Shown here in pieces: positions 12,392 to 32,432 of a stretch of DNA of 32,665 nt. The notes beneath the pieces were generated by a model. The model worked only from the letters and a program-made list of their open reading frames with translations, had not been told where the DNA came from and searched no databases. Each line of letters opens with the position of its first letter. The first letter of the stretch is position 1. The stretch is from the NCBI GenBank assembly GCA_025936595.1, contig JAICTB010000002.1, forward strand, positions 1 to 32,665. Reading direction: 5' to 3'. This DNA is from Thermoleophilia bacterium (GTDB lineage Bacteria; Actinomycetota; Thermoleophilia; Gaiellales; Gaiellaceae). Position numbers and translations under genes: made by a program.

Positions 12392-12410
12392 CCCGACAAG
12401 AATCGAACTT
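12392..12410 (+). repeat. 19-bp direct repeat, left copy (tRNA-Arg 3'-end fragment; att-like)
   Basis: cccgacaagaatcgaactt is identical to 24444-24462 within the tRNA-Arg gene, same orientation; flanking agtgccc is also shared with a 2-nt gap. Confidence 0.6.
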
Positions 12411-12423
12411 TGCGATCGCAGTG

Positions 12424-15400
12424 CTAACCGGCCAGGACGGCTGATCCCGCGGCGTGCTGCCGCGCGCGCGCGAGCCACGCGGTCGCGCCCAGCCGCTCGA
12501 GCGTCTCGACGGCGCTCGCCGGGATCGCCTCGCCCGCCACCTCGGCCCGCTCGAGCTGCGCTACCGCCACCCAGAACGGCATCTCGAGCTCGCCGAACCG
12601 CTGTGCTGCCGCCGCGAAGCGCACGGGGCTCGCCTCGAGGCGTCCACGAAGGCGTAGCGCCTGCGCCTCCATGAACGGCGGCCGCTGCCCCGGCGCCGCG
12701 GTCTCGACGCGCCCGAGCAGGCTCTCGACGTCAGACGTCCGGCCGAGCGCGAGGGCGGCCTCTGCCGCGTGCCAGAACGCCTGCTTCGCTTGCTGGTAGG
12801 AGAGCCCCGCGGTCCCGCCGAGCAGCTCGAGCGTCTTCAGCGCGGCCGCGAAGGCCTCCTCGAGCCGGCCCTCGGCGTGCAGGACGGCGGTGTCGGCCGC
12901 CGCGACCGACGTCCGCTCCTGCACGTCCGGCGAGTCGGCCGGGTAGAGCCCCAGAAGGCGCCGCGCCTCTGGCGCGTTGCCGCGCGCGATGTGGATCTCC
13001 ACCACCGAGCTGAGCAGACTCAGCGTCACGCTCTCGTTCAGACGGTCCTCCGGGATCTCGGCGGCCGTCGCAAGGCACTCGTCCCAGCGGCCGAGCATGT
13101 AGAGCGGGTACGTCGACTCGGCGAGCGTCGCGCGCTCGTGCGGGCGGATGCCGCGGCGCCGGCTCACCTCGAGCGCCGATTCGAGGTAGCCGAGCGCGTC
13201 CGCATAGCGGTCGGCGTGGAAGCACTGGTCCGAGAGGTTGAACTGGATCGTCGCGAGCTGCTCGAGCAGCTCGTGCTCCTCGGCGATCAGCAGGGCCTCG
13301 CGCAGATATGCGGTAGCCACGTGCGCGTGACCGCGGGCGCGCGAGAGGTGCGCGCGCCCGAGGAAGGCGCCGGCGAGCACTTCCGCGGCACCGAGTGATT
13401 CTCCGAGCTCGACTGCCCGGTCGACCAGCGCGCCGGCGCGGTCGTCGCCGGCGAAGACGTAGCCGCCCGCGAGGCGCATCGCGAGCATCCCAAGATCCTC
13501 GTCGGGCTCGTCGTCCTTGAGTAGCTCGTAGGCACGCTCAGTCATGCCGATCGCCTCGTCGAACCGCCCCTGCCAACGGACGACGAACGCGAGACGCGCC
13601 GAGACGCGTGCAGCGCGATGGCTCTCGCCGGCTCCGTCGTAGAGGGCGATGGACTCGCCGAACAGGCGCTCGGCGCCTTGGAGATCCGCCGCGCCCTGGG
13701 CGGCAGTGCCGGCCTCGTAGAGGAGCTGCGCCCGCTCCAGCGGCTCATCGGTTAGCTCCGCCGCCTGCATCAGATACCGCTGCGCCTCTCCGGACGCGGC
13801 GAGCGACTGCGCGCGCGCCGCCGCCCGGACGACCGCGTCGCGCGCACGTGCCCTCAGCTCGTCGTCAGGCACCGCCGCGTAGGCATCGAGCAGGTGCGCG
13901 GCCATTACCTCCGCCACCTCGTCGTCCCCGGCGAAGGCGCGCTCGAGATGGGAGGCAGCTGCGAGGTGGCGCGCCCGTCGCTCCCGCTTGGAGAGCGACT
14001 CGTAGGCGACGTGGCGGACGAGGTCCTGGAGGAACGCGTACTGCCCGTGCTCGGGCGAGCGCGCGTCCGCCTGCAGGCCAAGTACCTCCTTGCGGACGAG
14101 CGAGCCGAGCAGCAATTCGAGCTGGTCGTCCTCCTCGGCCAGCGCCGCGAGCGCGTCGCGCGTGAAGCTCTTGCCGAGGACGGCGCCGTCCTGGAGCAGG
14201 CGCCGCTCCTCCGGCGGAAGGCCGTCGAGCCGTGCGGCGATCAGCGCGTGCAGCGTCTCCGGCACGTCGAGCTCGCCGATCTCCCCGACCGGCTGGTACG
14301 TACTTCCTCGCTCCGCGATCAGCCTGCGATCGACCAGCATGCGTACGGTCTCCACCGCGTACAGTGGGACGCCCTCGGCGCGCTCGAGGATCTGGCGGCG
14401 CGTCGTGTCCGGGAGCCCGGGGACGAGGCCGTTCAGCAGTTGCTCCATCGCGTCGCGGTCGAGCGGCTCGAGGTAGAGGGAGGTGAAGTTGCGGTGGCCT
14501 GCGCCCCACGTCGGCCGGCGCTCGAGGAGCTCCGGCCGCGAGAGCGTGACCACGTAGAGTGGCGAGTTGCGCGACCATTCGAGCAGGTATTCGATGAAGT
14601 CGAGCAGGCTCGAGTCCGCCCACTGCAGGTCTTCGAACGCGAGCACCGTCGGGTATGTGTCGGCGAGCCGCTCGAAGAACAGGCGCCAGGCTGCGAACAG
14701 ATCCTGCCGGTCGCGCGCGGCGTGCTCGGCGAGGGCGAGCAGGTGCGCGAGCCGCGGCTCGACGAACGCACGCTCGTCGGCATCGACGATGTGCTCCTCC
14801 AGTGTGGCCCGCAGCTTCTCGAGCGCGACACCGGGCTCGTCGTCCTCGCCGATGCGGCAGCGCATCCGCACCATGTCGGCGAGCGCCCAGTAGGTGACGC
14901 CGTCGCCGTAGGAGAGGCAGCGGCCGCGGTGCCAGTACGTCAGCTGAGGCAGGCCGTCGAAGTACTTGTAGAACTCCCACGCGAGACGCGACTTCCCGAT
15001 CCCGGCGATGCCTGTGACCGAGACGAGATGTGCCTTGGCACTCTCGGCGCAGGCATGGAAGAGGTCCTTGATCTGCCGGAGCTCACGGTCGCGGCCGACG
15101 AACGGCGCCTCGAGCCCGTGCGACTTGAGCGTCCCGCGCGCCCCGGATACGACGCGCAGCGCGCGGGCGAGCGCGACCGGCTCCTCCTTCCCCTTCAGCT
15201 CATGGGTGCCGGCGTCCTCGTAGACAACCGACTGCTCCGTCGCGCGGCGGGTCGCGTCCCCGACGAGCACCGTCCCGGCGTCGGCGGCCGTCTGGACGCG
15301 CGACGCGGTGTTGACGAGGTCGCCCGCGACCATCCCCTGACCCTGCGCCCCGACCGTGACCGCCGCCTCGCCGGTGACGACGCCGGCCCGAGCGCGCAGC

Positions 15401-15867
15401 TCGGGCACGCCGATCTCGTCGCCGAGCGCCGACACCGCCGCCACCAGGTCGAGCCCTGCGCGGACCGCGCGTTCGGCGTCGTCCTCCGTCGCGGTCGGTG
15501 CTCCCCACACCGCCATCACGGCGTCTCCGATGAACTTCTCGACCGTCCCGCCGTAGAGCTCGATCAGCCGGCGGCACGTCTCGAAGTAGCGCGTCAGGAG
15601 CTCGCGCACCTCCTCCGCGTCGCGCACCTCCGACAGGCGGGTGAAGCCGACGAGGTCCGCGAACAGCACCGAGACCAGTCGCCGCTCGGCTGCCGGCTGG
15701 ACATGTTCCGCGCGAGCCGCCACGGCACTCCCGCACTCGCCGCAGAACTTGACGCCGTCCTCGAGTGCGGCGCCGCACGAGGCGCACGCGACCGTCAGGC
15801 CGGTTCCGCACTCGCTGCAGAACTTCTTGCCCGCCGGGTTCTCGGTGCCGCAGCCGGGACAGAGCAT
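12424..15867 (-). CDS. Zinc-ribbon / class III nucleotidyl cyclase / AAA-type ATPase / TPR signalling protein
   Basis: 1147 aa; CPGCGTENPAGKKFCSECG and CASCGAALEDGVKFCGECG ribbons; cyclase LVSVLFADLVGFTRLSE, VEKFIGDAVMAVWG, DLVNTASRVQ; Walker A GIAGIGKSRLAWEF; helical repeat C-terminus. Confidence 0.94.
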   Translation of the reverse strand: MLCPGCGTENPAGKKFCSECGTGLTVACASCGAALEDGVKFCGECGSAVAARAEHVQPAAERRLVSVLFADLVGFTRLSEVRDAEEVRELLTRYFETCRRLIELYGGTVEKFIGDAVMAVWGAPTATEDDAERAVRAGLDLVAAVSALGDEIGVPELRARAGVVTGEAAVTVGAQGQGMVAGDLVNTASRVQTAADAGTVLVGDATRRATEQSVVYEDAGTHELKGKEEPVALARALRVVSGARGTLKSHGLEAPFVGRDRELRQIKDLFHACAESAKAHLVSVTGIAGIGKSRLAWEFYKYFDGLPQLTYWHRGRCLSYGDGVTYWALADMVRMRCRIGEDDEPGVALEKLRATLEEHIVDADERAFVEPRLAHLLALAEHAARDRQDLFAAWRLFFERLADTYPTVLAFEDLQWADSSLLDFIEYLLEWSRNSPLYVVTLSRPELLERRPTWGAGHRNFTSLYLEPLDRDAMEQLLNGLVPGLPDTTRRQILERAEGVPLYAVETVRMLVDRRLIAERGSTYQPVGEIGELDVPETLHALIAARLDGLPPEERRLLQDGAVLGKSFTRDALAALAEEDDQLELLLGSLVRKEVLGLQADARSPEHGQYAFLQDLVRHVAYESLSKRERRARHLAAASHLERAFAGDDEVAEVMAAHLLDAYAAVPDDELRARARDAVVRAAARAQSLAASGEAQRYLMQAAELTDEPLERAQLLYEAGTAAQGAADLQGAERLFGESIALYDGAGESHRAARVSARLAFVVRWQGRFDEAIGMTERAYELLKDDEPDEDLGMLAMRLAGGYVFAGDDRAGALVDRAVELGESLGAAEVLAGAFLGRAHLSRARGHAHVATAYLREALLIAEEHELLEQLATIQFNLSDQCFHADRYADALGYLESALEVSRRRGIRPHERATLAESTYPLYMLGRWDECLATAAEIPEDRLNESVTLSLLSSVVEIHIARGNAPEARRLLGLYPADSPDVQERTSVAAADTAVLHAEGRLEEAFAAALKTLELLGGTAGLSYQQAKQAFWHAAEAALALGRTSDVESLLGRVETAAPGQRPPFMEAQALRLRGRLEASPVRFAAAAQRFGELEMPFWVAVAQLERAEVAGEAIPASAVETLERLGATAWLARARQHAAGSAVLAG

Positions 15868-16055
15868 CGAGCACCCACCATACGTTCGCCGGGGTCCGCC
15901 GCAAAGGTCGCCGCTCGGATCGCGGCTCCGCTACAGGTGTCGAAGCTCCCGCCCGCGGCTGCAGGCCGGCCGTGGAAGATTCACGCAAACGCCGCTTCCG
16001 AAGCGGCCTCACCGGTTAAAAGTGACACGCCTTGGTTCGAGCGTGGTTATCACGT

Positions 16056-16250
16056 TCAGCGGCCCCGCCCGTCCTTCGCGCTCTGCCGAAGAGCACACAT
16101 CTGGTCGAGCTTCCGGTTGGCCCGCGAAAGGTGCCATTCGACGGTCGGCTCGTCGAACTTGACGAGCCGCGCGATCTCCTGCGTGGATTTTCCGGACGCG
16201 GCAAGCAGGACGATGCGCTTCTCGGTGAATGTCAGTTCGGGGACACTCAC
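16056..16250 (-). CDS. Stand-alone LuxR-type HTH protein (64 aa)
   Basis: MSVPELTFTEKRIVLLAASGKSTQEIARLVKFDEPTVEWHLSRANRKLDQMCALRQSAKDGRGR; matches the LuxR/GerE HTH pattern without an N-terminal receiver. Confidence 0.8.
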   Translation of the reverse strand: MSVPELTFTEKRIVLLAASGKSTQEIARLVKFDEPTVEWHLSRANRKLDQMCALRQSAKDGRGR

Positions 16251-16360
16251 GACGCTCCCTTATGGTCGTTTGTTCGTTTTTAGCCGAGTGAGCGGGCGGG
16301 CCGGGAGACGCCGCTCCCCGCCCGCCCGCCGGCGACTACGGGGCCACCCGCAACCGGCTG

Positions 16361-16981
16361 TTAGCCGTAGTACATGACGCCTTCGTAGCTTTGGATCTGC
16401 TTCGTGAAGTGCAGCTTCGGCCCGGTGAGCGTGAGCCCGTCGCTGGCGTGGCCGGCCGGCTTCGGGGTACCCGGCATCAGGCAGTAGAGCTTCAGCACGC
16501 CCGTGCCGAGCCCGCTGAGCTGCACGTTCAGCGTCAGGATGCCGGAGTAGGACGGCGACCCCCTCGACCCCTGCCAGCCGACCTCCTTGAAGCCTTTCGG
16601 CCACCAGCCTGCGAGCTGGAGAAACGAGACGAAGCGCGTCGGATGCCACGTCCCATGGGCAGTCATGGCGCCCGCTGCGCTCGTGACGGCATAGGTGCCG
16701 CCGCCGGTGGCGCTCCCGGCGGCCGGATCCCAGCCGCCCCGGCCGGTGAGCACGACGGTGGAGCCGTTGGCGGCTTGGGCCGATGGCCGGCCGTTGTCTT
16801 GGTAGCGGACGCCCGTCGGGCTGTTCGGGTCATTGCCGAGCAGGGTGTAGTGGGTCAGGAAGAACGTGAACGGCCTTGCCGTCCCACGGTCGGTGGCACC
16901 CGCGCCGAGCGAGCTGGCGGCGAGGACCGCGGTGGCCGCGACGACGAGCGCCGCCACGAGTGAGAGCTTCTTCATGATCAT
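16361..16981 (-). CDS. Secreted protein of unknown function (206 aa)
   Basis: MIMKKLSLVAALVVAATAVLAASSLGAGATD signal peptide, then a Gly/Ser/Thr-rich beta-like domain. Confidence 0.7.
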   Translation of the reverse strand: MIMKKLSLVAALVVAATAVLAASSLGAGATDRGTARPFTFFLTHYTLLGNDPNSPTGVRYQDNGRPSAQAANGSTVVLTGRGGWDPAAGSATGGGTYAVTSAAGAMTAHGTWHPTRFVSFLQLAGWWPKGFKEVGWQGSRGSPSYSGILTLNVQLSGLGTGVLKLYCLMPGTPKPAGHASDGLTLTGPKLHFTKQIQSYEGVMYYG

Positions 16982-17002
16982 CCTCCTCCGGTGCCTCTGG
17001 TG

Positions 17003-17224
17003 TCAGCAGCCCGAGGCTGCGACGGCGCCAAACATGCCGGCGTTGCCGTTGCCGCGAACGTCCTTCGTCATCGCGTTTGCCATGCCGCCGCCTGCGAGCA
17101 GCATGTTGCAGGCTCCTGTGACGCCCGTCCCGGGCGCCGGTCCGGTCGCGGCCGAGCCGGTACCTGCCGCGATGGTGAGACCGGCGACGACGGCGACGGA
17201 GACGAGTGCGATCCCGCGCTTCAC
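17003..17224 (-). CDS. Small secreted protein (73 aa)
   Basis: MKRGIALVSVAVVAGLTIAAGTGSAATG signal peptide; short mature part with two cysteines; 21 nt upstream of the next secreted-protein gene on the same strand. Confidence 0.62.
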   Translation of the reverse strand: MKRGIALVSVAVVAGLTIAAGTGSAATGPAPGTGVTGACNMLLAGGGMANAMTKDVRGNGNAGMFGAVAASGC

Positions 17225-17320
17225 TTACGACCTCCTCTGTGTTGTGGACAGCTGCGACCACGATCCCGCGGCCCGCTAACGTGCGGCTGACGTTGCGCTA
17301 ACGCGTGCGAGAATCGCCGT

Positions 17321-20300
17321 GTGGAGCTCCGGTTGCTCGGCACGCTCGAGGTCGAGGCCGACGGTCGCGATCTCACGCCGGCGCGCCCGAAGCAGAGGGC
17401 GCTGCTTGCGCTGCTGCTGCTGAACGCCGGTGCCGTCGTGCCCATCGACGACCTCGTCGACGCACTCTGGGGACCGCGGCCGCCGGAGACGGCGCGGACG
17501 GCGCTGCACGGCCACGTGTCCGCGCTGCGCAAGCGGCTCGGCGCGGGGCGCATCGAGACGCGGGCGCCCGGCTACCTGTTCCGGCTCGCCGACGGAGACC
17601 AGCTCGACCTGCACCAGCTCGAAGAACTCGTGGCCAAGGCGCGTTCGGCGGCGGACGCGTCGCTGCGGGTGGATGTGTTCGGTGAAGCGCTCGAGCTCAT
17701 CCGCGGCGAGCCGCTTGTCGACTTCCGCTATGAGCCGTTCGCGCGGCAGGAGGCGTTGCGTCTCGAGGAGCTTCGGCTCTCGGTGCTCGAGGAGCGGCTC
17801 GCCGCCGAGCTGGAGCTCGGCCGCCACACGGGGGCGATTCCGCAGCTCGAACGGCTCGTTGTCGAGCACCCGCTGCGCGAGCGCCTCCGCGCCCAGTTGA
17901 TGCTCGCCCTGTACCGGGCCGGCCGCCAGGCCGACGCCTTGCGTGTCTTCGAGGACGCTCGCCGAGTGCTGATCTCGGAGCTCGGGATCGAGCCCGGGCT
18001 GTCCCTCCAGCAGCTCGAGCGCCGCATCCTCAACCACGACGCGTCGCTCGCCGGTGTCGCCGAGAAGCCATCCGGCGTCGTCACGTTCCTCGCAGCCGAT
18101 CGGCCCCCGGACGAGGCGCTCGTGCACGGCGCGATCGCACGGCACGGCGGCTTGGAGCTGGAGCCGAGCAGGGAGGTGCCGCTCCTGGTTGCGTTCGCGC
18201 GAGCAGGCGACGCGGCCGCGGCCGCCGTCGAGCTACAACGGTCGGCGGCCACGGACGGATTGCGCATCGGAGTCGCCTCGGCGGAGGCGGGCTTCACCAC
18301 AACCGGCTACGCGGGCCTTCGGGTGCGCGATGCGGAGACGGTCCGCGCCGCCGCCCACCGTGGCCAGACGCTCGTATCGCAAAGTACGCGCGACCTCCTG
18401 CGCGAGTTGCCATCTGAGGAGATCGACGTGCGCGACGTGGGGAAGCACGTGCTCACCGACCTTGCGCCTGCGCGACGGCTCTTCCAGCTCGTCATTCCGG
18501 GCTTGCGATCCGAGTTTCCGCCGCCCCGCAGCCTTGCGGGAAGCGCGACGAACCTGCCGCACCAGCCGGCGCCGCTGGTGGGCCGGAAGCGTGAGCTCGA
18601 GGACCTTGCCGGGCTGCTTCGGCGGGACGAGGTCCGGCTCGTCACGCTGACCGGCGCCGGGGGGACTGGCAAGACACGGCTTGCCGCACAGGTCGGAGCC
18701 CTCCTGCTCGACGAGTTCCCCGACGGCGTCATCTTCGTCGACCTCGCTCCGCTGATGAATCCGGCGCTCGTGCTGGAGGAGGCCGCGCACACCCTCGGTG
18801 TCCCGCGGACTGCGGCCGAATGCCCCGTCGGAGAGGACGTGATTCGGCACCTGCGGCGGGGCCGCTACCTGCTCGTGCTCGACAACTTCGAGCATCTCCT
18901 CGACGCCGCGCCTGCGGTCCTGGAGGTCGCCGCTGCGGCGAAGCTACTCGTCACGAGCCGCGCGCCCCTGCGCGTTACAGGCGAGCTCGTCTACCCCGTG
19001 TCACCGCTCGAGACGGCGGTCGGCGACGACGTGGAGGCGCTGGCGTCAGTCGACTCGGTGGCGCTGTTCGTGGCGCGGGCCCAGGCGGTGCGGCCCGAGT
19101 TCGCGCTCAGCGCCGGCAACGCAGCGGACGTCGCAGGCATCTGCACGGCGCTCGACGGACTGCCGCTTGCGATCGAGCTTGCGGCGCCGCGGGTCACGGT
19201 GCTGCCGCCTGCTTCGCTGCGCTCCCGGCTCGACGCGCGTCTGAAGCTCCTCACGCATGGGCCGCGCAGGCTGCCGGAGCGCCACCGGGCGCTGCGCACC
19301 ACGATCGAGTGGAGTTACGACCTGCTCGAGCCTGAGGAGCAGCGGCTCTTCGAGCGGCTTGCGGTGTTCGTCGGAGGATGCAGCCTCGAGGCCGTCGAGT
19401 GCATTTGCGGCGACGACGTCGAGCACGTCGCGGCGCTCTCGTCGCTGGTCGATGCCAGCCTCGTCCGCAGCGAAGGCAGCGACGATGCACCGAGGTTCCC
19501 GATGCTCGAGACCATTCGCGAGTACGCGGCCGAGCGGCTCGAGCAGTCGGGAGACGCCGAAGCGATCCGGCGCCGTCACGCCCAGCACTTCCTGGCGCTC
19601 GCGGAGGACGTCGAGCCGCAGCTCCGCGGAAGCCCGGGCGTGTGGCTCGAGTCGCTCGAGTGGGACAACGACAACCTCCGCGCCGCACTCGATCGTCTCG
19701 ATGCGGCGGGCGAAGACGAGCTCACGCTTCGATTCGCCGGCTCGCTCTGGCGGTACTGGTATCTGACGGGTCGCTGCGCAGAGGGCTCGGAGCGACTGGA
19801 GCGCGCTCTTGCTGCGGACGATCGCCCGACGGCGGCCCGTGGCAAGGCGCTGATCGGCGCGGCCGTGATGGCTGCCAACCGCGGCGACACCGGGCTCGCA
19901 CGGCGCCGCGCTGAGGAGGCTATCGACCTCCACCGAGCGCTCGGGGACGCCTGGGGTGAGACCTACTCGCTGTTCATGCTCGGCGCCGCCGTCGGCGACG
20001 ACGGCGAGCTCGAGCGGGCCGTGGAGCTCGACGAGGAGAGCGCGCGGCGCTTCCGGGAGCTGGGAGACGAGCACTCGGCGCTGCTCGCGACACGCAACCT
20101 CGCGCGCATGTTCGCCGCTCTCGGCGACCGTGGCCGAGCACGGGAGCTGCACGAGCACAACCTGCGCAGCGCCCGGCTCACCGACAACCAGCGGATCGCC
20201 GCGAGCGCGCTCAGCGCGCTGGCGATGATCGCCGTCGCCGATGGGCGCGTCGAGGACGCGTATCCGATGTTGACGGAGAGCCTCTCGATTCATCGCGACC

Positions 20301-20587
20301 TCGGCGACTTCCTCGACAGCGCCGTCGATCTCTGTCGCTTTGCGTTCGTGCTGGCATTCGACGGCCACGTCGAGAAAGCCGTCCGTCTGCTCGCCAGCTT
20401 CGACGCGCACGCCGACGAGGTCGGTGGGCGCCGCGCCTGGGTAGCCGAGATCAACGACGATACGCTGACGACGGTTCGCACGCGGCTCGACGACGATGCG
20501 TTCGCGAGCGCGTGGCAGGAGGGAGCGGGGTTGACGATCGGGGAGGCTGTCACACTCGCGCTCGATGGCGCGGACGGGGCGCTCTGA
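17321..20587 (+). CDS. SARP/AfsR-type regulator: winged-HTH + BTAD + degenerate cyclase-like domain + NB-ARC-like ATPase + TPR
   Basis: 1088 aa (GTG start); MELRLLGTLEVEADGRDLTPARPKQRALLALLLLNAGAVVPIDDLVDALWG, BTAD helices, Walker A LTGAGGTGKTRLAAQVG, YLLVLDNFEHLLDA, GLPLAIELAAPRV, C-terminal helical repeats. Confidence 0.94.
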   Translation: MELRLLGTLEVEADGRDLTPARPKQRALLALLLLNAGAVVPIDDLVDALWGPRPPETARTALHGHVSALRKRLGAGRIETRAPGYLFRLADGDQLDLHQLEELVAKARSAADASLRVDVFGEALELIRGEPLVDFRYEPFARQEALRLEELRLSVLEERLAAELELGRHTGAIPQLERLVVEHPLRERLRAQLMLALYRAGRQADALRVFEDARRVLISELGIEPGLSLQQLERRILNHDASLAGVAEKPSGVVTFLAADRPPDEALVHGAIARHGGLELEPSREVPLLVAFARAGDAAAAAVELQRSAATDGLRIGVASAEAGFTTTGYAGLRVRDAETVRAAAHRGQTLVSQSTRDLLRELPSEEIDVRDVGKHVLTDLAPARRLFQLVIPGLRSEFPPPRSLAGSATNLPHQPAPLVGRKRELEDLAGLLRRDEVRLVTLTGAGGTGKTRLAAQVGALLLDEFPDGVIFVDLAPLMNPALVLEEAAHTLGVPRTAAECPVGEDVIRHLRRGRYLLVLDNFEHLLDAAPAVLEVAAAAKLLVTSRAPLRVTGELVYPVSPLETAVGDDVEALASVDSVALFVARAQAVRPEFALSAGNAADVAGICTALDGLPLAIELAAPRVTVLPPASLRSRLDARLKLLTHGPRRLPERHRALRTTIEWSYDLLEPEEQRLFERLAVFVGGCSLEAVECICGDDVEHVAALSSLVDASLVRSEGSDDAPRFPMLETIREYAAERLEQSGDAEAIRRRHAQHFLALAEDVEPQLRGSPGVWLESLEWDNDNLRAALDRLDAAGEDELTLRFAGSLWRYWYLTGRCAEGSERLERALAADDRPTAARGKALIGAAVMAANRGDTGLARRRAEEAIDLHRALGDAWGETYSLFMLGAAVGDDGELERAVELDEESARRFRELGDEHSALLATRNLARMFAALGDRGRARELHEHNLRSARLTDNQRIAASALSALAMIAVADGRVEDAYPMLTESLSIHRDLGDFLDSAVDLCRFAFVLAFDGHVEKAVRLLASFDAHADEVGGRRAWVAEINDDTLTTVRTRLDDDAFASAWQEGAGLTIGEAVTLALDGADGAL

Positions 20588-20939
20588 CCAGTCGTCTGAA
20601 CCGGATCCGTGGGTCTCCTTCGTCGTCCGGCTCGATGGAGATCAACTCCATCGGATGGCTTTTGGTGATCGCGAAGGGTGGCTGATCAAGCGCGATGGGC
20701 GGTTCCTCGAGCGCGATCTCGTTTGCGTTCGGCTGCGACAGGGCGATCGCCAACGCACCCTGCAAACTTGCGGGTTCTAGCAGGACAGTCGAGAGTGCTC
20801 CCAGTCGGTCATAACCCGAACCAAGACGCGCGTGTGGTTGGCGATCGGTTCAAGCTTTCACGTCGCAATGCCCGAAACGGCGGCTCGACGGGACGATGAA
20901 CTGTTACCCCGGTGCGGGCCGAAGCTATCTTCGGGGCGT

Positions 20940-21251
20940 ATGAAGACCGCGGATAAGGCTCGCAAAGACCGCTATCGGCGATACGCGCCGGAGCTAGGCC
21001 TGCTCCTGTGGGCGGTTTGGGATCCAATCGCCGCCGGAGTCCCAATCGACGAGTACGACAACTACGTCCCGGTCATCTGGAAGCTGCTGGAGGAGCACGC
21101 TGGCGCGGAGGCTGTTGCCGCCGAACTGACCCGGATCTGCACGGATCGCATCGAGATGGACGCCGGGACGAACGAGACCGCTGCCGAGCTGCTCACGGCG
21201 TGGTGGCACTGGCGCTTCGATTTCCCGGTCGAGTTCGAGGCCAGCTCGTAG
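20940..21251 (+). CDS. Small acidic protein (103 aa), DUF1871/immunity-protein-like
   Basis: MKTADKARKDRYRRYAPELGLLLWAVWDPIAAGVPIDEYDNYVPVIWKLLEEHAGAEAVAAELTRICTDRIEMDAGTNETAAELLTAWWHWRFDFPVEFEASS; WDPIxxGxPxDEYDxY pattern. Start at ATG 20940. Confidence 0.65.
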   Translation: MKTADKARKDRYRRYAPELGLLLWAVWDPIAAGVPIDEYDNYVPVIWKLLEEHAGAEAVAAELTRICTDRIEMDAGTNETAAELLTAWWHWRFDFPVEFEASS

Positions 21252-21330
21252 CGTCTGGCGGGCGGGCCGGCTACGTGCCCGAGCGGTCCGTAAGACATCC
21301 GACGGCGGAACTCTGGAATGCTGAACGAGC

Positions 21331-21741
21331 ATGAGCTTCATCCTCGAACTCGACGCGCCGGACGTTGATCCGGAGACGGCAGAACGACTGGAGCGGGCGA
21401 CCCAGGAGGCGGGATATCTGCCTGTGCGTGCGCGGCGAGGACGGCGCTGGCGACGCCGCGCGGAGATGGGGTTGTCGATCTTCGACGGGCGCGACGACGT
21501 CCACGTTCTCTCGGACGACGCCGATTGGTCGGAGGACGCCTTCACATTCGACGAGCGCGGCAGGGAGCTACTTGCACAGACGGTCTCGCTGCTGGCGCAC
21601 GAGCTTGAGCCCGGGTGGGCGCTGCGCGCGTATTGGGTCGGGGACCCGTGCAAGGACGAGCGCACCGTGACGGGTGATGAGCTGGCCGAACTTGTCCGCA
21701 GCTCGGCTCTCGAACGCACTGCGCGCTACCGGGTCGCTTGA
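21331..21741 (+). CDS. Hypothetical acidic protein (136 aa)
   Basis: ATG ORF with coding-like composition: MSFILELDAPDVDPETAERLERATQEAGYLPVRARRG... Confidence 0.6.
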   Translation: MSFILELDAPDVDPETAERLERATQEAGYLPVRARRGRRWRRRAEMGLSIFDGRDDVHVLSDDADWSEDAFTFDERGRELLAQTVSLLAHELEPGWALRAYWVGDPCKDERTVTGDELAELVRSSALERTARYRVA

Positions 21742-21802
21742 GGGGCGACGGCGCCCCGGACTGCGCGAGCGTCCCGTCGCGGGAGCTCCGCTGCTTTTCT
21801 AA

Positions 21803-21838
21803 GGTTTTCTATCGAGCCGTGTTGGTTCGATAGAAACC
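21803..21838. terminator. AT-rich hairpin downstream of 21331-21741
   Basis: tttctatcgagcc-gtgtt-ggttcgatagaaa (13-bp stem with one G-U) plus outer gg/cc pair; terminator or other palindromic site. Confidence 0.5.
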
Positions 21839-22106
21839 ATGAGAATCGCGTTCGGGTGCAGCTCGGGCCGGGACTCTCGGCGCTTCCGCAGAGATGCTGA
21901 TCTGACGTGTGTCTGAGCAGGGAAATGTCCGAAAGTCGCTGTCGAAGGTCCTTACATAGAGGTGGAGACTTCTATGCGTCTGGCACCGAGCACGGCAGCC
22001 TGCTCTGACCGGTGCGTCTTCGGCGCCGGCCGAGGTCATTGCCGTTAGCGCTGTCATCGTTGCTGGCAGCGGGTGTCAGCAACGTCGCCAGTAGCAGGGT
22101 GCCGTG

Positions 22107-22273
22107 CGCGTGCCCGCCTTCCCGTTTTGTGGTGCGGGTTTGCGGGGCGCTCCCGTTTCCTCCGTCTTCGACTCCGGATTCCTGACCACCCGCACACTTC
22201 GTGAGCTTGCGCGGGTGGTCAGGAACCACGGGAGCGCTGAGGTTTCTGGTGTGAGCGGGAACGCGGGCACGCG
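22107..22273. other. Nested inverted-repeat structure A (possible ncRNA or recombination/regulatory site)
   Basis: Three co-axial arms: cgcgtgcccgccttcccg (22107-22124)/cgggaacgcgggcacgcg (22256-22273), 17 of 18; gcgctcccg (22147-22155)/cgggagcgc (22229-22237), perfect; ttcctgaccacccgc (22179-22193)/gcgggtggtcaggaa (22211-22225), perfect. Confidence 0.6.
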
Positions 22274-22496
22274 ATCGGAGACCGGACACCGAACAGTGCG
22301 AATACCGGGTCCGAAGCAGGACCTGTGAAGAAGAGCGGGAGTGCGGGCTGCCGGCCTGGTGAAGAGATGACGGCTGGCGGGCGGCCATGGGTTGCCAGCT
22401 CAGTGGGCAGCGGGTGGCGAGTTGGCGGGCAGTGGGGGACGCGATCATTCGGCCGCCTGTCGTTGCAGCCTGCGAGCTGAGGTCAGGTTCGTCGGC

Positions 22497-22629
22497 GGGG
22501 CGGGCTTCGCGGGTTTGGGTGTGCGGGCTGCGCGCCGGCCGTCAAGCCGCCTTTGGCGGCTCTTCGCTCGCTGCGCTCGTGACTGCCGGCTCTCCGCAGC
22601 CCGCGTGAGCGGCGCTCGAAGCCCGCCCC
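22497..22629. other. Nested inverted-repeat structure B upstream of the recombinase operon
   Basis: ggggcgggcttcg (22497-22509)/cgaagcccgcccc (22617-22629), 13 bp perfect; gcgggctgcg (22523-22532)/cgcagcccgc (22595-22604), 10 bp perfect; gccggc and gtca/tgac pairs; apical agccgcc-ttt-ggcggct (22545-22561). Confidence 0.62.
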
Positions 22630-22663
22630 ACCGTCGATCTCAAACTCAATCAGGAGGTTGCGC

Positions 22664-22711
22664 ATGATGCACGTCGTCGTTCGTCCCGATGCAGCGGGTA
22701 GCGGCGCTTGA
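22664..22711 (+). CDS. Possible 15-aa leader peptide (or start of an interrupted small ORF)
   Basis: aggagg (22652-22657), then ATGATG: MMHVVVRPDAAGSGA*, stop overlapping a TTG start (cTTGA). Confidence 0.3.
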   Translation: MMHVVVRPDAAGSGA

Positions 22712-22974
22712 GCGTCCGGTCGAAGCACGTCCGTCGCGCTGACGATCGTCGCCGAGGCGAAGCGCCGTCCCGGCGGCGGCCTGTCCGGCGGCGGGAGCCG
22801 GTAGCGGCTGCGGGCGACGGTCGGCTGCGTGTTCGGGCGCCGCGGTTCGTCGACCGTTCCGATGCTCAGCGGACGGAGGTGGTCCGTTCGTTGCGTGTGC
22901 TGTACTGCGATTTCATCGCGGGCGGCGGCCTGGAGGAGCTTCGCCGCCGTCGCGATCGGGGAGGAGACCGTTAG
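22708..22974 (+). CDS. Hypothetical Arg-rich protein upstream of and abutting the recombinase gene
   Basis: 88-aa ORF (TTG start) ending ...RFVDRSDAQRTEVVRSLRVLYCDFIAGGGLEELRRRRDRGGDR*; TAG directly abuts the recombinase GTG. The N-terminal part may not be real. Confidence 0.42.
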   Translation: MSVRSKHVRRADDRRRGEAPSRRRPVRRREPVAAAGDGRLRVRAPRFVDRSDAQRTEVVRSLRVLYCDFIAGGGLEELRRRRDRGGDR

Positions 22975-24477
22975 GTGAGGATCGCGACCTACACCCGTAT
23001 CTCGACCGACGAGGAGCACCAGCCTTACTCGCTCGAGGCTCAGGCCGTGCGTCTCGCGGCCTATGTGGAGAGTCAGGAGGGCTGGCGGATCACGCGCCGC
23101 TTTACCGACCAGGCATCCGGCGCGAGCCTCGAGCGGCCCGGCCTGGAGCGGGCGTTGAAGGAGGCGGACGCGAAGCGGTTCGACCTGCTGCTCGTCTACC
23201 GCGTCGACCGCCTGTCGCGGTCGGTGCGCGGGCTCGCGCATGTGCTTGAGCAACTCGACCAGGCCGAGGTGCTCTTCCGCTCGGCGACGGAGCCGTTCGA
23301 CACCTCTAGTTCGGCGGGGCGGATGATGGTGCAGATGCTCGGCGTGTTCGCGGAGTTCGAGCGGGCGACGATTGTCGAGCGGGTGATCGCCGGCATGGAA
23401 CGCAAGGCCGCCCGCGGCGAATGGAACGGCGGCTCCGTGCCCTTCGGCTACCGCCTCGACGCCGAACGCCGCTACCTCGAACCCGAACCGGCCGAAGCAG
23501 CCGTCGTCGAGGAGATCTTCGAGCGGTACGTCGAGCGACTGCACGGCACGCAAGCGATCGCTCGCTGGCTCAGCGGGCGCGGTTACCGGACGAAGCAGAG
23601 TAAGCCGTTCAATCCGCAAGCTGTGCTGACGATCCTGCGCAACCGCGCTTATCTCGGCCAGATCAGTTTCCGCGGCACCCATCACGCCGCACCCCACACG
23701 CCGCTGATCGAGGCGGCGTTGTTCGAGCGGGCGCAGGCGATCTTGCGCGAGCGCGGCGAGGATCACTCGTTGCGCCGCTCGAACCAGTCCGACTACCTGC
23801 TCACGGGGCTCGTGAAGTGCGTCCGCTGCGGCAAGCGCTACCTCGGCGCCGCCGCGAACGGCAACGGCGGCCGCTACCGCTACTACGTCTGCTTCTCACG
23901 GCAACGCTACGGCCGAGGGACCTGTGACGCGGACAGCCTCCCCGCCGACGAGCTCGAGCAGGCAATCCTGGAGCAGCTGCAAGACCTACTCGCGCGCGAG
24001 GACGACGTGCGCGAGGCGATCAGCGTCGCCTTCGCCGACCTCACCAAACAGCAGCCGAAACGCGACGCCGAACTCACTCGCATCGACGCGGACATCCGGA
24101 AGGTCGACGAGGCGCTCGATCGCTACTTCCGCGCCTTCGAGAACGGCTCGATGCCCGAGCAGGCGTGCGCGCCCCGAATCGCCGATCTCACCAAGCGGCT
24201 CTCAGAACTTCAGGCCCGTCGCGACGAACTCGCCGCGGACGCCGCCGACACCCCTGAACCTTTGAGCGAGGACGACCTCCACGCTCTCCAAGCACACGTC
24301 GCCCAAGTGATCGCCGACGGCGAGCCCGCCGCTCGCAAGGCACTGCTGCAAGCACTCGTCGACGAGATCCGCGTCGCAAGCCGCGACGAGATCTATCCCT
24401 TCTTCACATTGCCGACGGTTCGACCACCGTACGGATCAGTGCCCCCGACAAGAATCGAACTTGTGCACACGGTTTAG
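22975..24477 (+). CDS. Large serine recombinase / integrase
   Basis: 500 aa; resolvase domain MRIATYTRISTDEEHQPYSLEAQ...VYRVDRLSRSVRGL, recombinase domain, zinc ribbon CVRCGKRYLG...YYVC, coiled coil; C-terminus PPTRIELVHTV* encoded within the tRNA-Arg gene. Confidence 0.96.
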   Translation: MRIATYTRISTDEEHQPYSLEAQAVRLAAYVESQEGWRITRRFTDQASGASLERPGLERALKEADAKRFDLLLVYRVDRLSRSVRGLAHVLEQLDQAEVLFRSATEPFDTSSSAGRMMVQMLGVFAEFERATIVERVIAGMERKAARGEWNGGSVPFGYRLDAERRYLEPEPAEAAVVEEIFERYVERLHGTQAIARWLSGRGYRTKQSKPFNPQAVLTILRNRAYLGQISFRGTHHAAPHTPLIEAALFERAQAILRERGEDHSLRRSNQSDYLLTGLVKCVRCGKRYLGAAANGNGGRYRYYVCFSRQRYGRGTCDADSLPADELEQAILEQLQDLLAREDDVREAISVAFADLTKQQPKRDAELTRIDADIRKVDEALDRYFRAFENGSMPEQACAPRIADLTKRLSELQARRDELAADAADTPEPLSEDDLHALQAHVAQVIADGEPAARKALLQALVDEIRVASRDEIYPFFTLPTVRPPYGSVPPTRIELVHTV

Positions 24478-24511
24478 GAAACCGTTGCTCTATCCACTGA
24501 GCTACGGGGGC
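24440..24511 (-). tRNA. tRNA-Arg (anticodon CCT)
   Basis: Reverse strand folds as GCCCCCG TA GCTC AGTGGATA GAGC A ACGGT TTCCTAA ACCGT GTGC ACAAG TTCGATT CTTGT CGGGGGC A; all four stems perfect. Confidence 0.96.
24444..24462 (+). repeat. 19-bp direct repeat, right copy (inside tRNA-Arg)
   Basis: cccgacaagaatcgaactt, identical to 12392-12410. Confidence 0.6.
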
Positions 24512-24535: not shown

Positions 24536-26101
24536 CTAGTCCTCGATCGTGACGAGGGTGCCGATCGGGGTGTACGGCCACACTTTCGCGGCCGAGGCGA
24601 GCGGGAGCTCGACGCAGCCGAGGCTCTGCGGCGTGCCGAAGGAATTGCGATTGAACGCGTGCAGCGCTTCGCCGCCGTGGAAGTAGCTGATCCAGCGGAT
24701 CCCCGGATCGTTGTAGTGCGAGCCGTCGGGATTCGTGCCGCTCATCGTGCCGACCGGGATGTGCTCGAACACCGGGAACGTCCCGAGCGCGGTCGGCGCC
24801 GCCGGCACGCCGGTGTTGCCCGGCGAGGTGAGCACCACGTCGCCGTTGTGCCACAGCGTCAGGAGCTGCGGCACGTTTCGGTGCACGAAGACATAGCTGT
24901 AGCCGTCCCGGCGCTGCTTGCCCGCGACCGCGTCGACGAGCAGCGCGTGCCAGACATCGGCCCCGGCGATGCCGTCGACCGTCAGCCCGTGCTCGTCCTG
25001 GAACATCATCACCGCGCCGCGGACGATCGTGTTCGGCTCGCCGAGCCGCCAGAGCTCCTGCAGCTCGTGCGGTGTATTCGGGTAGCGCCAGGTGAACTCG
25101 CCGGCCGGCGGATCGACCGCGGCGGTGAGCTGCGCGCCCGCCGTTCGCGCAACCTCGTCGTCGTCCGGTGACCACGCGAGCGGCAGGTAGCCCTGCTCGG
25201 CGAGCAGCTGCTGCAGCCGCAGGAACGAGGCGGGCGCGACGGTCCAGCCGATCGCGCGCGACGCATCGACCGTGTCGCCGGTCGCGCTGCTGACGGCAAC
25301 CGTGTGCGGGAAGCGAACGTGCAGGCGGCTCGCGAAATGCGCGCCGAAGCCGGACGAGCGGAACTCGAGCGTGTGGCTGTCGGTCTGCAGCCAGCGGCCC
25401 GGGACGCCGGGCGAGAGCGTCGGCTGCGTCGAACCGAGCACCTCCGAGATCGGGTGCGAGAACGTGAGCCGCAGCGACGCTGACGGGTCGATCTGGGCGC
25501 CGGGCGCCGGGCTCGCGAGGACGACCGGCTCGCTCGCCGGCGGGAACCACGTCACCTTCACCGGCGCGCCGAGCCGCTCCCACGAGCGTGCGGCGACGGC
25601 TATGTCGATCGACCCCGCACGTGACTTCGCAGGCAGCGCGACGGACGTGCCGCCCACCGAGACACGGCCGTGGCCGAACGAGACCGAGCTGACCGCGGTG
25701 TCGAAGCGCACGCGCGGCGGTGCCCCCGGGCGAGCAGTCGGCCAGCGGTTGCGCACGTGCGCGACGGGCGCGTGCACCGTCAGCGTCTCGCGCCGCTCCT
25801 TGCCGAGCAGCCAGCTCGACCAGCCCGGGCGCCTGACGACGACCGCCACCGAGACCTCTTCTCCGGGTGTGACGCGTGTCGTCGGCGTCAGGCGCCCGCC
25901 GGCGACGTCGAGCCGGATCGGGCGACCTCCTGGGCCGGTCGCCCGGACGCGCTCGACCGAGCCCGCGAACGGCTGCAGGTCGATGCGCGCGAGCGCCGAG
26001 GCGTCGCCGGCGAGCGTCGCGCCCGACCAGAGATAGACGGCACCGGCGGCAGCCGCGAGCAGCGCGGCAACGGCGACGGCGGCAATCGCGGCCCGTGTCA
26101 C
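24536..26101 (-). CDS. L,D-transpeptidase (YkuD) with N-terminal Ig-like and peptidoglycan-binding-like regions
   Basis: 521 aa; N-terminal TM anchor; C-terminal WISYFHGGEALHAFNRNSFGTPQSLGCVELPLASAAKVW (HxxxxxxxSxGC catalytic signature). Confidence 0.92.
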   Translation of the reverse strand: MTRAAIAAVAVAALLAAAAGAVYLWSGATLAGDASALARIDLQPFAGSVERVRATGPGGRPIRLDVAGGRLTPTTRVTPGEEVSVAVVVRRPGWSSWLLGKERRETLTVHAPVAHVRNRWPTARPGAPPRVRFDTAVSSVSFGHGRVSVGGTSVALPAKSRAGSIDIAVAARSWERLGAPVKVTWFPPASEPVVLASPAPGAQIDPSASLRLTFSHPISEVLGSTQPTLSPGVPGRWLQTDSHTLEFRSSGFGAHFASRLHVRFPHTVAVSSATGDTVDASRAIGWTVAPASFLRLQQLLAEQGYLPLAWSPDDDEVARTAGAQLTAAVDPPAGEFTWRYPNTPHELQELWRLGEPNTIVRGAVMMFQDEHGLTVDGIAGADVWHALLVDAVAGKQRRDGYSYVFVHRNVPQLLTLWHNGDVVLTSPGNTGVPAAPTALGTFPVFEHIPVGTMSGTNPDGSHYNDPGIRWISYFHGGEALHAFNRNSFGTPQSLGCVELPLASAAKVWPYTPIGTLVTIED

Positions 26102-26157
26102 TCCAAAAGAATATGGCCGTTTTCCGCCGGGGACGAATCGCGCGTGTGCAAGCGTTT

Positions 26158-26322
26158 AGAAGCTCTCACAGAATGAGCGTTGTGCCGCCCGGCCGCGCTC
26201 GGCGCGGCGCGATGCTGTGTCCTCGGTCGTCCCGATAGTCTTGACTATCGGGAAGCCCTGCGTCCTGGCCTCGCACCACCGATCGCACCCGGATCGACGA
26301 ACGTCATTCTGTGAGAGCTTCT
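26158..26322. mobile_element. 165-bp MITE-like element with 19-bp perfect terminal inverted repeats
   Basis: agaagctctcacagaatga (26158-26176) and tcattctgtgagagcttct (26304-26322); internal perfect hairpin cccgatagtc-tt-gactatcggg (26231-26252). Confidence 0.58.
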
Positions 26323-26332
26323 TACCCCACTC

Positions 26333-27565
26333 GTGGCGAACCTCGGCGTCATCCGCGGCGGTGCCCTCTACGTCGGCGCGCTGGTCGGCCCCGGCCTGCT
26401 GCTCGTACCCGCGCTCGCAGCCCAGGCGGCCGGCGCGGCGTCGATCGTCGCGTGGGGCGCCCTGCTCGTCCTCTCTGCGCCGCTCGCCGTCACCTTCGCC
26501 GCGCTCGGCGTGCGCCACCCCGTCGCAGGCGGCGTCTCGGCCTACGTCCGCGAAGGGCTCGGCGACGATGCCGCGGCCGTCACCGGCGGCTGGTTCCTCG
26601 CCGCGGTCGCACTCGGCGCGCCGGCGGTCTCGCTCATCGGCGGCTACTACGTCGCCGATCTCACCGGCTCCGGCACTCCGGTCGCCGCGGCCGTCGGCCT
26701 CGCGATGTTCGCCGCCGTGCTCGCCGCGAACCTCTTCGGCGTGCGCGTCTCGTCCGGCTTCCAGCTCGCGCTCTCGTCGGCGCTGATCGTCGTCGTTGCC
26801 GTGGCGGTCGTCGTCGCGCTGCCGTCGCGCGGCGGGGACAACTGGTCGCCGTTCGCCCCGCACGGCTGGTGGGCGATCGGCACCTCGGCCAACATCCTCG
26901 TCTGGCTGTTCGTCGGCTGGGAGGCGGTCGCCCAGCTCGCCGGCGAGTTTCGCCGGCCGGGCGTCGACCTGCCGCGGGCCGCTGCGCTCGCGTTCGGCGT
27001 CGTGACGATCCTCTACGGCGGCGTCGCGGTCGCGACGATCGGCGTCACGGCCGGTACGCACTCGCGCGTGCCGCTCGCCGACCTCATCTCCGTCGGGTTC
27101 GGCCGCGCCGGGCGCGACGCGACGGCGGTGCTCGCGGTCGCGCTCACGATGGGGACGATGAACGTCTACCTCGCCGGCACGGCGAAGCTGACCGCGGCGC
27201 TCGCCGCCGAGGGTGCGCTGCCGCTCTGGTTCGCCGGCGGCCGCGAGCGCTCGATCCCGCGCCGCCCGCTGCTCGTCTACGCGCCTGTCGTCTTCGCCGT
27301 CATCGCCGTCGTGCTCGCGGGGGTCGGGACGACGTCGGAGTTGATCCGCGCGACGTCCGCCTGCTTCATCGCCGTCTACGTGATCGCGCTGCTCTCTGCG
27401 GTACGCATCCTCGACGGGCCGGTGCGCGCCGCCGCCGCCGTCTCGCTCGTGCTCTCCGGACTCGTCGCCGTCTTCTCCGCCGCGTATCTCGCCGTCCCGG
27501 TGGTCGCCGGCGTGCTCGCGTTCGCGCTCCGGCGCCGGCTCCAGCCTCGCGCCGTCGCGGTGTAG
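26333..27565 (+). CDS. APC-superfamily amino acid permease
   Basis: 410 aa, GTG start; GALYVGALVGPGLLLVPALAAQAAGAASIVAW and about 11-12 TM segments. Confidence 0.9.
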   Translation: MANLGVIRGGALYVGALVGPGLLLVPALAAQAAGAASIVAWGALLVLSAPLAVTFAALGVRHPVAGGVSAYVREGLGDDAAAVTGGWFLAAVALGAPAVSLIGGYYVADLTGSGTPVAAAVGLAMFAAVLAANLFGVRVSSGFQLALSSALIVVVAVAVVVALPSRGGDNWSPFAPHGWWAIGTSANILVWLFVGWEAVAQLAGEFRRPGVDLPRAAALAFGVVTILYGGVAVATIGVTAGTHSRVPLADLISVGFGRAGRDATAVLAVALTMGTMNVYLAGTAKLTAALAAEGALPLWFAGGRERSIPRRPLLVYAPVVFAVIAVVLAGVGTTSELIRATSACFIAVYVIALLSAVRILDGPVRAAAAVSLVLSGLVAVFSAAYLAVPVVAGVLAFALRRRLQPRAVAV

Positions 27566-27574
27566 CGTCGGGCC

Positions 27575-27955
27575 GTGCACGAGACGCGCATCCAGACACG
27601 CTGGACCGACTTCGACGCGCTCGGCCACCTCACGCACGTCGCCTACCCCGTGCTCCTCGACGAGGCGCGCGACTCGTTCCTCGCGAGCAGGATCGGCTCG
27701 TTCGCCGAGTGGCCGTCGGTGATCGTGCACCTCTCGGTCGACTACAAGCGGGAGATCGCGCACCCTGCGCCCGAGCTCGTGGTGCGTACGCGGGTCGCCG
27801 AGTTGGGGCGGACGAGCGTGACGTTTGAGCAAGAGGTCGTCGGCCCGGACGGCGCCGTCGCGGCGAGCTCGCGCTCGGTGCTCGTCGCCTGGGACGCCGG
27901 CGCGCGGGGCGCGCGCTCGATCGCGGACGACGAGCGCGCGAAGCTTGTCGGCTAG
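27575..27955 (+). CDS. Acyl-CoA thioesterase (4HBT hotdog fold)
   Basis: 126 aa; RIQTRWTDFDALGHLTHVAYPVLLDEARDSFL matches the 4HBT pattern xxRWxDxDxxGHxxxxxYxxxxxEAR. Confidence 0.88.
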   Translation: MHETRIQTRWTDFDALGHLTHVAYPVLLDEARDSFLASRIGSFAEWPSVIVHLSVDYKREIAHPAPELVVRTRVAELGRTSVTFEQEVVGPDGAVAASSRSVLVAWDAGARGARSIADDERAKLVG

Positions 27956-29043
27956 ACCGCGACGCGGACTTCGCCCCCGACGAAGACGCGCTCGATCTCG
28001 ATGCGGTCGTTCAGGACGACGATGTCCGCCGGCGCACCGATGTCCAGCCGGCCGAGCTCCGGATCGCCGAGCACACGTGCCGGCGTGGACGTCGCGGCCT
28101 CGAGCGCGTCCTCGATCGGCACGCCGAGGTCGTGCAGGTTCCGCACCGCCTCGATCATCGTCAGCACACTGCCCGCGAGCACGCCGTCGGGACCGCGCAC
28201 GGTTCCCTCGCTCACGTGCACGTCGAGGTTGCCGAGGCTGTACGAGCCGTCCGCGACGCCGGCGCCCGTGATCGCGTCGGTGACGAGTGCGAGCCGGCCG
28301 CGCGCCGCGCGCGCGGCGACGAGGACGGTCTCCGGCGCGAGATGGATGCCGTCGACGATCACGGAGACCACGACGTCGTCGCGTGCGAGCGCCGCACCGA
28401 TGATGCCAGGATCGCGGTGCAGGAACGGTCGCATCGCGTTGAAGAGGTGAGTAACGCTGCGCGCGCCGCGGTCGAAGGCGGCGTTCGCCTGCGCAGCCGT
28501 CGCGTCGCTGTGCCCGAGTGAGACGGCGACGCCACGCTCGAGCAGCCGGTCGATCAACTGCTCCGCACCCGCAAGCTCCGGCGCGAGCGTCATCAGGCGG
28601 ACCGGCCCCGCATCGAGCAACCGCTCGAGCAGCGCCGCGTCGGGGTCGCGCCGCGACGACGCCTCGTGCGTGCCGAGCCGGTTGGGCGAGAGGAAAGGCC
28701 CCTCGAGGTGCATGCCGAGGATCCGCGGTCTCGCCTCGCCCACCGGCACCTCGCGCATCGCCGCGAGGAGTTGCTGTTCGGGGCTCGTGATCAGCGTCGG
28801 GAGGTACGCCGTCACACCAGTCTCGAGCAGCGCCTCCCCGGCGCGGCGATAGCCGGCGACGTCGGCGTCGAGGAAGTCGACGCCGCCGAAGCCGTTCACC
28901 TGGAGATCGACGAAGCCGGGCACGGCAATGCCGCGGCCGCCGGGCGACGAGACCGCGACGGCGACGACCCGGCCGTCCTTCACCTCGACGTCGCCGGCGA
29001 CGAGCAGGCCGTCGACGAGCGCCGCTTCGACTCCGAGTTTCAT
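27952..29043 (-). CDS. nagA: N-acetylglucosamine-6-phosphate deacetylase
   Basis: 363 aa; PGFVDLQVNGFGGVDF, GMHLEGPFLSPNRLGTHEAS, SLGHSDATAAQ, VTHLFNAMRPFLHRDPGIIGAAL, LVTDAITGAG. Confidence 0.95.
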   Translation of the reverse strand: MKLGVEAALVDGLLVAGDVEVKDGRVVAVAVSSPGGRGIAVPGFVDLQVNGFGGVDFLDADVAGYRRAGEALLETGVTAYLPTLITSPEQQLLAAMREVPVGEARPRILGMHLEGPFLSPNRLGTHEASSRRDPDAALLERLLDAGPVRLMTLAPELAGAEQLIDRLLERGVAVSLGHSDATAAQANAAFDRGARSVTHLFNAMRPFLHRDPGIIGAALARDDVVVSVIVDGIHLAPETVLVAARAARGRLALVTDAITGAGVADGSYSLGNLDVHVSEGTVRGPDGVLAGSVLTMIEAVRNLHDLGVPIEDALEAATSTPARVLGDPELGRLDIGAPADIVVLNDRIEIERVFVGGEVRVAV

Positions 29044-29059
29044 CGCGCCAGTCTAGAAG

Positions 29060-29070
29060 TGGTCCTACCC
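29060..29070. promoter_or_regulatory. Weak DasR/dre-like site (TGGTCCTACCC)
   Basis: Partial match to the TGGTCTAGACCA-type palindrome, just upstream of nagA. Confidence 0.3.
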
Positions 29071-29072
29071 GT

Positions 29073-29084
29073 TGGTCAATACCA
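29073..29084. promoter_or_regulatory. DasR/dre-like operator (TGGTCAATACCA)
   Basis: Near-palindrome with TGGT/ACCA half-sites in the nagA-ABC divergent intergenic region. Confidence 0.6.
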
Positions 29085-29127
29085 GTAATCCAATTCGTGG
29101 CGAGAGCGGGCTTGTATCCGCCCGAGC

Positions 29128-29139
29128 TGGTCTATACCA
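29128..29139. promoter_or_regulatory. DasR/dre-like operator (TGGTCTATACCA)
   Basis: Close to the TGGTCTAGACCA consensus; 10 nt upstream of the ABC ATPase start. Confidence 0.65.
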
Positions 29140-29148
29140 TCGCACGCG

Positions 29149-31043: not shown

Positions 31044-31046
31044 GAT

Positions 31047-31058
31047 TGGTATTGACTT
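31047..31058. promoter_or_regulatory. Weak dre-like half-site (TGGTATTGACTT)
   Basis: TGGTATTGAC equals 10 nt of the reverse complement of the 29073-29084 site. Confidence 0.35.
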
Positions 31059-32411: not shown

Positions 32412-32432
32412 CGCGTGCAGGAAAGCAGTCCC

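Follow-up and report, generated by a model that had tools for sequence, protein, structure and literature searches.

The well-known large serine integrases mostly target a protein-coding gene. Serine integrases at tRNA genes are rare and are described from a few single-target cases (PMC3218068, with parallels in PMC3146451 and PMC3816273). We analyzed a stretch of 32,665 nucleotides (the window) on contig JAICTB010000002.1 of a Thermoleophilia bacterium assembly (GCA_025936595.1), in which a large serine recombinase gene (int) abuts the 3′ end of a tRNA-Arg(CCT) gene. With a probability of roughly 85%, positions 20,798–24,441 are a small integrative element that was placed at the 3′ end of this tRNA gene by its own recombinase. 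The actinobacterial clade of large serine integrases to which this enzyme belongs has probably adopted the universal tRNA T-arm (GTTCGA) as one half of its chromosomal attachment site (attB), with the other half left nearly free, so that almost any tRNA or transfer-messenger RNA (tmRNA) gene would serve and elements could be stacked in tandem.

Several described systems resemble this locus in part. Integrases of the LI/A118, TP901-1, Bxb1 and phiC31 type share its Resolvase, Recombinase and zinc-ribbon domains, a 5-bp shift of the outer motif between the element's own site (attP) and attB, and an attP half-site of about 25 bp (PMC3783163), but the attB half of the present clade is the T-arm of many tRNA genes. 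Actinomycete integrative and conjugative elements (AICEs), including those of Mycobacterium with serine recombinases at tRNA-Leu (PMC3218068), are likewise actinobacterial with int beside a tRNA gene, and, like AICEs, the element of one relative (L043) has a pSAM2-type RepSA and an FtsK-like gene; the window copy differs in having no recognizable replication or transfer genes, and its clade in using many tRNA isotypes. The ssrA islands of Dehalococcoides, with the integrase DsiB, also combine a serine recombinase at tmRNA, an int 3′ end overlapping the attachment site and tandem islands, but have an inferred T-loop crossover with a 20-bp repeat, a partner recombinase (DsiA) and a single target gene (PMC3146451). 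The Int of phage phiRSM1 is a serine recombinase at the 3′ end of tRNA-Ser, but it is described as resolvase/invertase-like (a small serine recombinase), belongs to a filamentous phage, and has a 13-nt core and one tRNA target (PMC3816273). Multi-targeting large serine recombinases also apply one specificity to many targets, though the described examples have relaxed, often AT-rich motifs; many of them carry DUF4368, and the word "tRNA" is absent from the main text of the report (PMC10083194). No description of one clade using many tRNA genes through the T-arm was found in the literature searched, which mostly excludes subscription papers.

The features of the proposed element are listed below in window positions; P is the half of attP in the recombinase 3′ end, P′ the half at the other end of the element, and G002 a genome of the same genus.

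20,798–24,441, + strand: serine-recombinase integrative element, 3,644 bp from crossover to crossover (± 1–2 nt), placed by the P′ profile match, the attP/attB geometry and the empty site in G002
20,771–20,826, + strand: attL, the left attachment site; host or older-island half to 20,797, then the P′ half with CGAACC at 20,817–20,822 (+20 to +25 from the centre)
24,415–24,466, + strand: attR, the right attachment site; P half with GGTTCG at 24,417–24,422 in the recombinase 3′ end, centre at 24,441/24,442
within 24,415–24,466, + strand: B′ half of attR, the tRNA acceptor stem and T-arm with CGAACT at 24,456–24,461, from the int 3′-end alignment and spacing counts
22,975–24,477, + strand: large serine recombinase, 500 amino acids, from Pfam, a PDB sequence search and the sequence itself
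24,439–24,511, − strand: intact tRNA-Arg(CCT), the attB target, from ARAGORN; orthologous tRNA and right flank in G002, G003, G008 and G011

The initial annotation had proposed a 12-kb element at tRNA-Arg(CCT), bounded by a 19-bp direct repeat, with a serine recombinase at its tRNA end and the tRNA 3′ end facing inwards. Repeat, tRNA and recombinase were recovered at their reported positions by exact search, ARAGORN and Pfam, respectively, and the arrangement at the tRNA end holds, with the tRNA 3′ end facing left, into the element. The recombinase has the domain order of a large serine integrase, an N-terminal Resolvase followed by Recombinase and Zn_ribbon_recom (Pfam E-values of 1e-40, 5.5e-20 and 2.4e-16), and its sequence VRIATYTRIS provides R8 and S10, the catalytic residues in Bxb1 numbering (Ser10 and Arg8; PMC12884075). 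Its last codons and stop fall in the antisense strand of the tRNA (C-terminus ...PPTRIELVHTV). The gene is single-copy in the source genome (G000; 290 contigs, 69% complete, the window being one contig). Only distant recombinases were found among 60 relatives, and those in phage and plasmid records are all distant (<60% identity).

Scanning genome contigs turned up relatives of the recombinase at 70 loci, mostly at 44–83% identity and nearly all in actinobacterial metagenome assemblies. In 36 of the 70, ARAGORN identified a convergent, intact tRNA or tmRNA gene immediately adjoining the int 3′ end, with targets covering Arg (CCT, TCT, CCG and ACG), Lys, Glu, Ile, Leu, Ala, Val, Pro and tmRNA. 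The earlier remark that serine integrases are less typical users of tRNA genes is thus correct in general (PMC3218068), with the present clade as an exception. Because the recombinase reading frame usually runs into the tRNA, the C-terminus in this family is antisense tRNA (for example ...PPAGLEPATHGLGNRRSI). A tree of 53 recombinases with 38 labelled tips requires at least 20 changes of anticodon and at least 11 of amino-acid type, and near-identical enzymes of one clade lie at Val-TAC, Val-CAC, Ala-CGC and tmRNA. Such switching of target between related enzymes points to a property common to tRNAs. Relatives adjacent to tmRNA occur at L046 (5214) and L002 (1113).

In the alignment of int 3′ ends, GGTTCG stands some 23 bp ahead of the tRNA 3′ end, and the T-arm CGAACC, read on the same strand, occupies the mirror position. 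GGTTCG occurs in 46 of the 53 int 3′ ends, and the valine codon within it is GTT in 45, although GTT makes up 7.7% of valine codons in the same genes; the motif is therefore conserved at the DNA level and not just as protein. GGTTCG and CGAA are separated by the tRNA spacing of 39 nt in 36 loci; in three others the distance is 44 nt, as in P–P′, attP-type junctions. In these three (L022, L025 and L032) no tRNA follows int, and CGAACC, 44 nt from GGTTCG, appears to open another element. From this comparison attP is a palindrome centred at the equivalent of 24,441/24,442 in the window, with motifs 20–25 bp out, against 15–20 bp in the tRNA. Rutherford et al. (PMC3783163) describe a serine integrase zinc-domain motif 5 bp further inward in attB than in attP, and the outer half-site motif here is likewise 5 bp farther out in attP (44 versus 39 nt). 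The P–P′ junctions can be explained by recombination of an incoming attP with a resident attR (P–B′), such that the tRNA half alone would be needed. At locus L044 tRNA identity ends in the anticodon loop, which first suggested a crossover at that point; the P–P′ junctions led us to reject it. As arrangements in their own right, the junctions at L022 (4362), L025 (11482) and L032 (6888) are tandem serine elements, in which an int end followed by the P′ end of the next element composes a complete attP-like palindrome.

The P′ motif lies upstream of int in many loci and delimits elements of about 4.5 to 11.3 kb; across 962 kb, sites above 14 bits number 25 on the int strand and one on the reverse. 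A P′ profile built from 15 sites of relatives, none from the window, found one site in the window, at 20,794–20,826 (17.0 bits; the next best on that strand scores 3.9). That score was reached nowhere in 1.30 Mb of control DNA and in one of 2000 simulated 24-kb sequences. With this site as its left end the element is 20,798–24,441, or 3.64 kb rather than 12 kb, and the cyclase and SARP genes once counted as cargo lie outside it. The GC content shows no step at 12.4 kb and instead steps at about 20 kb (from 0.71 to 0.65–0.69). In the relatives, no convincing long direct repeat of the tRNA 3′ end was found in up to 50 kb upstream of the recombinase, as the short core alone is common to both ends. 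In L007 two P′ sites (1026 and 1808) stand 782 bp apart with a P-like remnant, GGTTCGACCACCGT, between them, apparently an eroded earlier element.

The empty-site comparison suggested at the outset agrees with this left end. In G002, CCTGCAAACAAGCCAGTTCTAGCAGGGCAAACGAAAGTG is joined directly to the orthologous tRNA, whereas in the window the corresponding CCTGCAAACTTGCGGGTTCTAGCAGGACAGTCGAGAGTG ends at 20,797 and the tRNA resumes after 3,644 bp. The two left flanks are identical at 27 of 34 positions without gaps (79%), scoring 20 where 200 shuffles reach 12 at best, and the match, though short, breaks exactly at the predicted crossover. An intact tRNA beside the integrase, a distal attachment site and an empty site in a relative, which together characterize a tRNA-integrated element, are thus all present, with an empty-site match of only 39 bp. 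Similar comparisons through the neighbouring YkuD, cyclase, ORF 11729 and SARP genes found no orthologous context, nor did one for the relative L043, where the contig ended.

The element boundaries, the site geometry, the placement of the family at tRNA genes and the empty site in G002 can all be read from the sequences. In the mechanism we propose, the recombinase, which we infer to be active and to bind these motifs, would pair attP (a palindrome of GGTTCG in the int 3′ end and CGAACC at the other element end) with the tRNA gene. The T-arm (CGAACY on this strand) would serve as the attB half-site, 15–20 bp from the centre, and crossover would fall at tRNA nucleotides 72/71, so that the tRNA would remain functional after insertion and be restored by excision. 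As the T-arm motif is present in nearly every tRNA, the clade would be able to occupy many tRNA genes. Joining the flanks computationally without the element gives an intact tRNA (...CAGTCGAGAGTG|CCCCCGACAAG...). If the element is still mobile, the predicted restored site would run from the SARP end, ...GTCGAGAGTG|CCCCCGACAAG..., without the 3.6 kb, and the predicted circle junction would read ...GGATCAGTG|CTCCCAGTCGG...; in that circle the recombinase would acquire a different C-terminal tail (computed at 522 rather than 500 amino acids). The window element would sit between the tRNA and an older island, whose features and surroundings are as follows.

12,392–12,410, + strand: 19-bp relic of a tRNA-Arg 3′ end; probable distal end of the older island (12,392–20,797), not of the serine element
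12,424–15,867, − strand: cyclase/AAA/TPR regulator, not part of the serine element; in G003 a 62% homologue has a tRNA-Arg fragment on either side
17,321–20,587, + strand: SARP-type regulator, outside the serine element
20,759–20,797, + strand: left flank of the G002-type empty site, probably the tRNA-proximal end of the older island; 79% match to the sequence joined to the G002 tRNA
26,156–32,663, no strand assigned: conserved right flank with the amidohydrolase and adjoining genes, in synteny next to this tRNA in genomes of the same genus

The repeat at 12,392 is an argument for a single element of 12.05 kb (12,392 to 24,443), which the serine recombinase would move and in which the cyclase and SARP genes would be cargo. 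The 19 bp, CCCGACAAGAATCGAACTT, are exact at 12,392–12,410 and 24,444–24,462, on the same strand and in the correct orientation for a tRNA 3′ end, with no other copy in the window at up to three mismatches and none expected from 100 dinucleotide shuffles; islands in the same genus do carry repeats of 41–48 bp of the tRNA 3′ half. The repeat nevertheless misfits the attachment geometry of the family, as its T-loop motif is 2 bp nearer the core than in the tRNA, where a distal end of this family would have it 5 bp farther. The left copy does lack two acceptor-stem C residues, as first reported, and plain excision at the 19-bp core would leave a damaged acceptor stem. When the mapped crossover is used instead, the tRNA comes out intact, so that objection falls away for the shorter element. 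With a proper P′ site at 20,794, an empty-site match that stops at 20,797 and GC content without a step at 12.4 kb, the left end at 20,797/20,798 is better supported and the 12.05-kb element most improbable. It is also very unlikely that the recombinase adjoins the tRNA while the site at 20,794 is a coincidence and the true left end lies elsewhere or is lost: the site is divergent from those of relatives, but the control and simulated sequences seldom or never reach its 17 bits, and it agrees with both the GC step and the empty site in G002.

Most likely, the repeat at 12,392 is what remains of the distal end of an older island (12.39–20.80 kb), which contains the cyclase and SARP genes and has its present end at 20,797. 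We lean slightly towards the extended version of this explanation, in which that island was of a tyrosine-integrase type, as in G002, and a later insertion put the serine element between island and tRNA. Within the genus, the tRNA-Arg(CCT) locus is a hotspot of integration: its right flank is kept in G002, G003, G008 and G011, and the DNA beyond the tRNA 3′ end is different in each. Fragments of the tRNA 3′ end mark distal island ends in these four and in G012, those in G002, G008 and G011 being same-orientation 3′-half fragments of 41–48 bp kilobases from the tRNA, and the G012 fragment (L149, 2739) also lacking the two C residues. Proteins in G002 and G011 read as tyrosine integrases on inspection of their sequence, the cyclase homologue in G003 is flanked by two tRNA fragments, and the sequence beside the G002 tRNA resembles 20,759–20,797. 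Against this, no integrase was recognized in 12.4–20.8 kb and no similarity to the G002 integrase was found in the window. The left relic is 19 bp and lacks two C residues, rather than spanning 41 bp, cyclase-type regulators are common in this genome, and nothing syntenic to the left flank is found in the genus. Nor does the locus itself have the form of a tyrosine-integrase island, with a serine recombinase in place and a 19-bp repeat instead of one of about 40 bp from the anticodon loop to the tRNA 3′ end.

Several points weigh against the 3.64-kb serine element itself. Its P′ site is among the weaker matches (17 bits versus 25–47 for most relatives) and carries T in place of C at one core position; the exact GGTTCG is missing in seven of the 53 homologues; and no motif is conserved in the B half-site, an unusual situation for a serine integrase. 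The empty-site match covers only 39 bp beside the tRNA, in a genome with another island there. The predicted central dinucleotide, GC, is self-complementary and does not fix polarity, so the crossover may be off by 1 nt. A recombination directionality factor was not identified, and neither of the two cargo genes below matches any family.

20,832–21,251, + strand: open reading frame, 139 amino acids, no family above cut-off
21,331–21,741, + strand: open reading frame, 136 amino acids, no family
22,179–22,225, no strand assigned: strong hairpin (18-nt arms, 94%) in a gene-poor stretch of 1.2 kb before the recombinase

Elements of the relatives contain Replic_Relax genes (L020 and L007) and a variable cargo of DNA methylase, EamA transporter and glycosyltransferase genes. 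In the window element, neither a replication initiator nor a TraB/FtsK-like transfer gene, as expected of an AICE, was recognized, and the search for a decayed Replic_Relax gene returned nothing convincing; the element is therefore probably stranded or helper-dependent. Its gene-poor part (22,100–22,660) holds a cluster of inverted repeats (22,102/22,256, 22,179/22,208 and 22,465/22,617) and may act as an origin of transfer or replication. At 20,771–20,797, in the left half of attL, GGTTCT stands where P carries GGTTCG; this may be chance, or an earlier serine element may have left its P half there in decayed form.

Around the tRNA, an L,D-transpeptidase gene (24,536–26,101) separates it from the conserved right flank, and its homologue in G008 is on another contig. 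Cyclase/AAA/TPR regulators are strongly expanded in the host family, with seven in the window genome and 16 in G019 (E ≤ 1e-60). The G003 locus (L109, G003:C246, 4956–10378) holds a TetR-like gene with the cyclase homologue between its two tRNA-Arg(CCT) 3′ fragments, with no integrase seen between them. G021, of the same family, carries tRNA-Arg(CCT) 5′-half fragments (anticodon to 5′ end; C12:10902, C16:6931 and C103:20319), the opposite of the usual 3′ relics.

An entire clade of serine recombinases is thus found at many types of tRNA gene, and the match of its outer attachment-site motif to the near-universal T-arm suggests why. The T-arm rule provides a testable predictor of the targets of such enzymes, and the grammar of the attachment sites a means of finding the ends of small elements that lack a long direct repeat. 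These may possibly also be recombinases with a predictable landing site across many bacteria.

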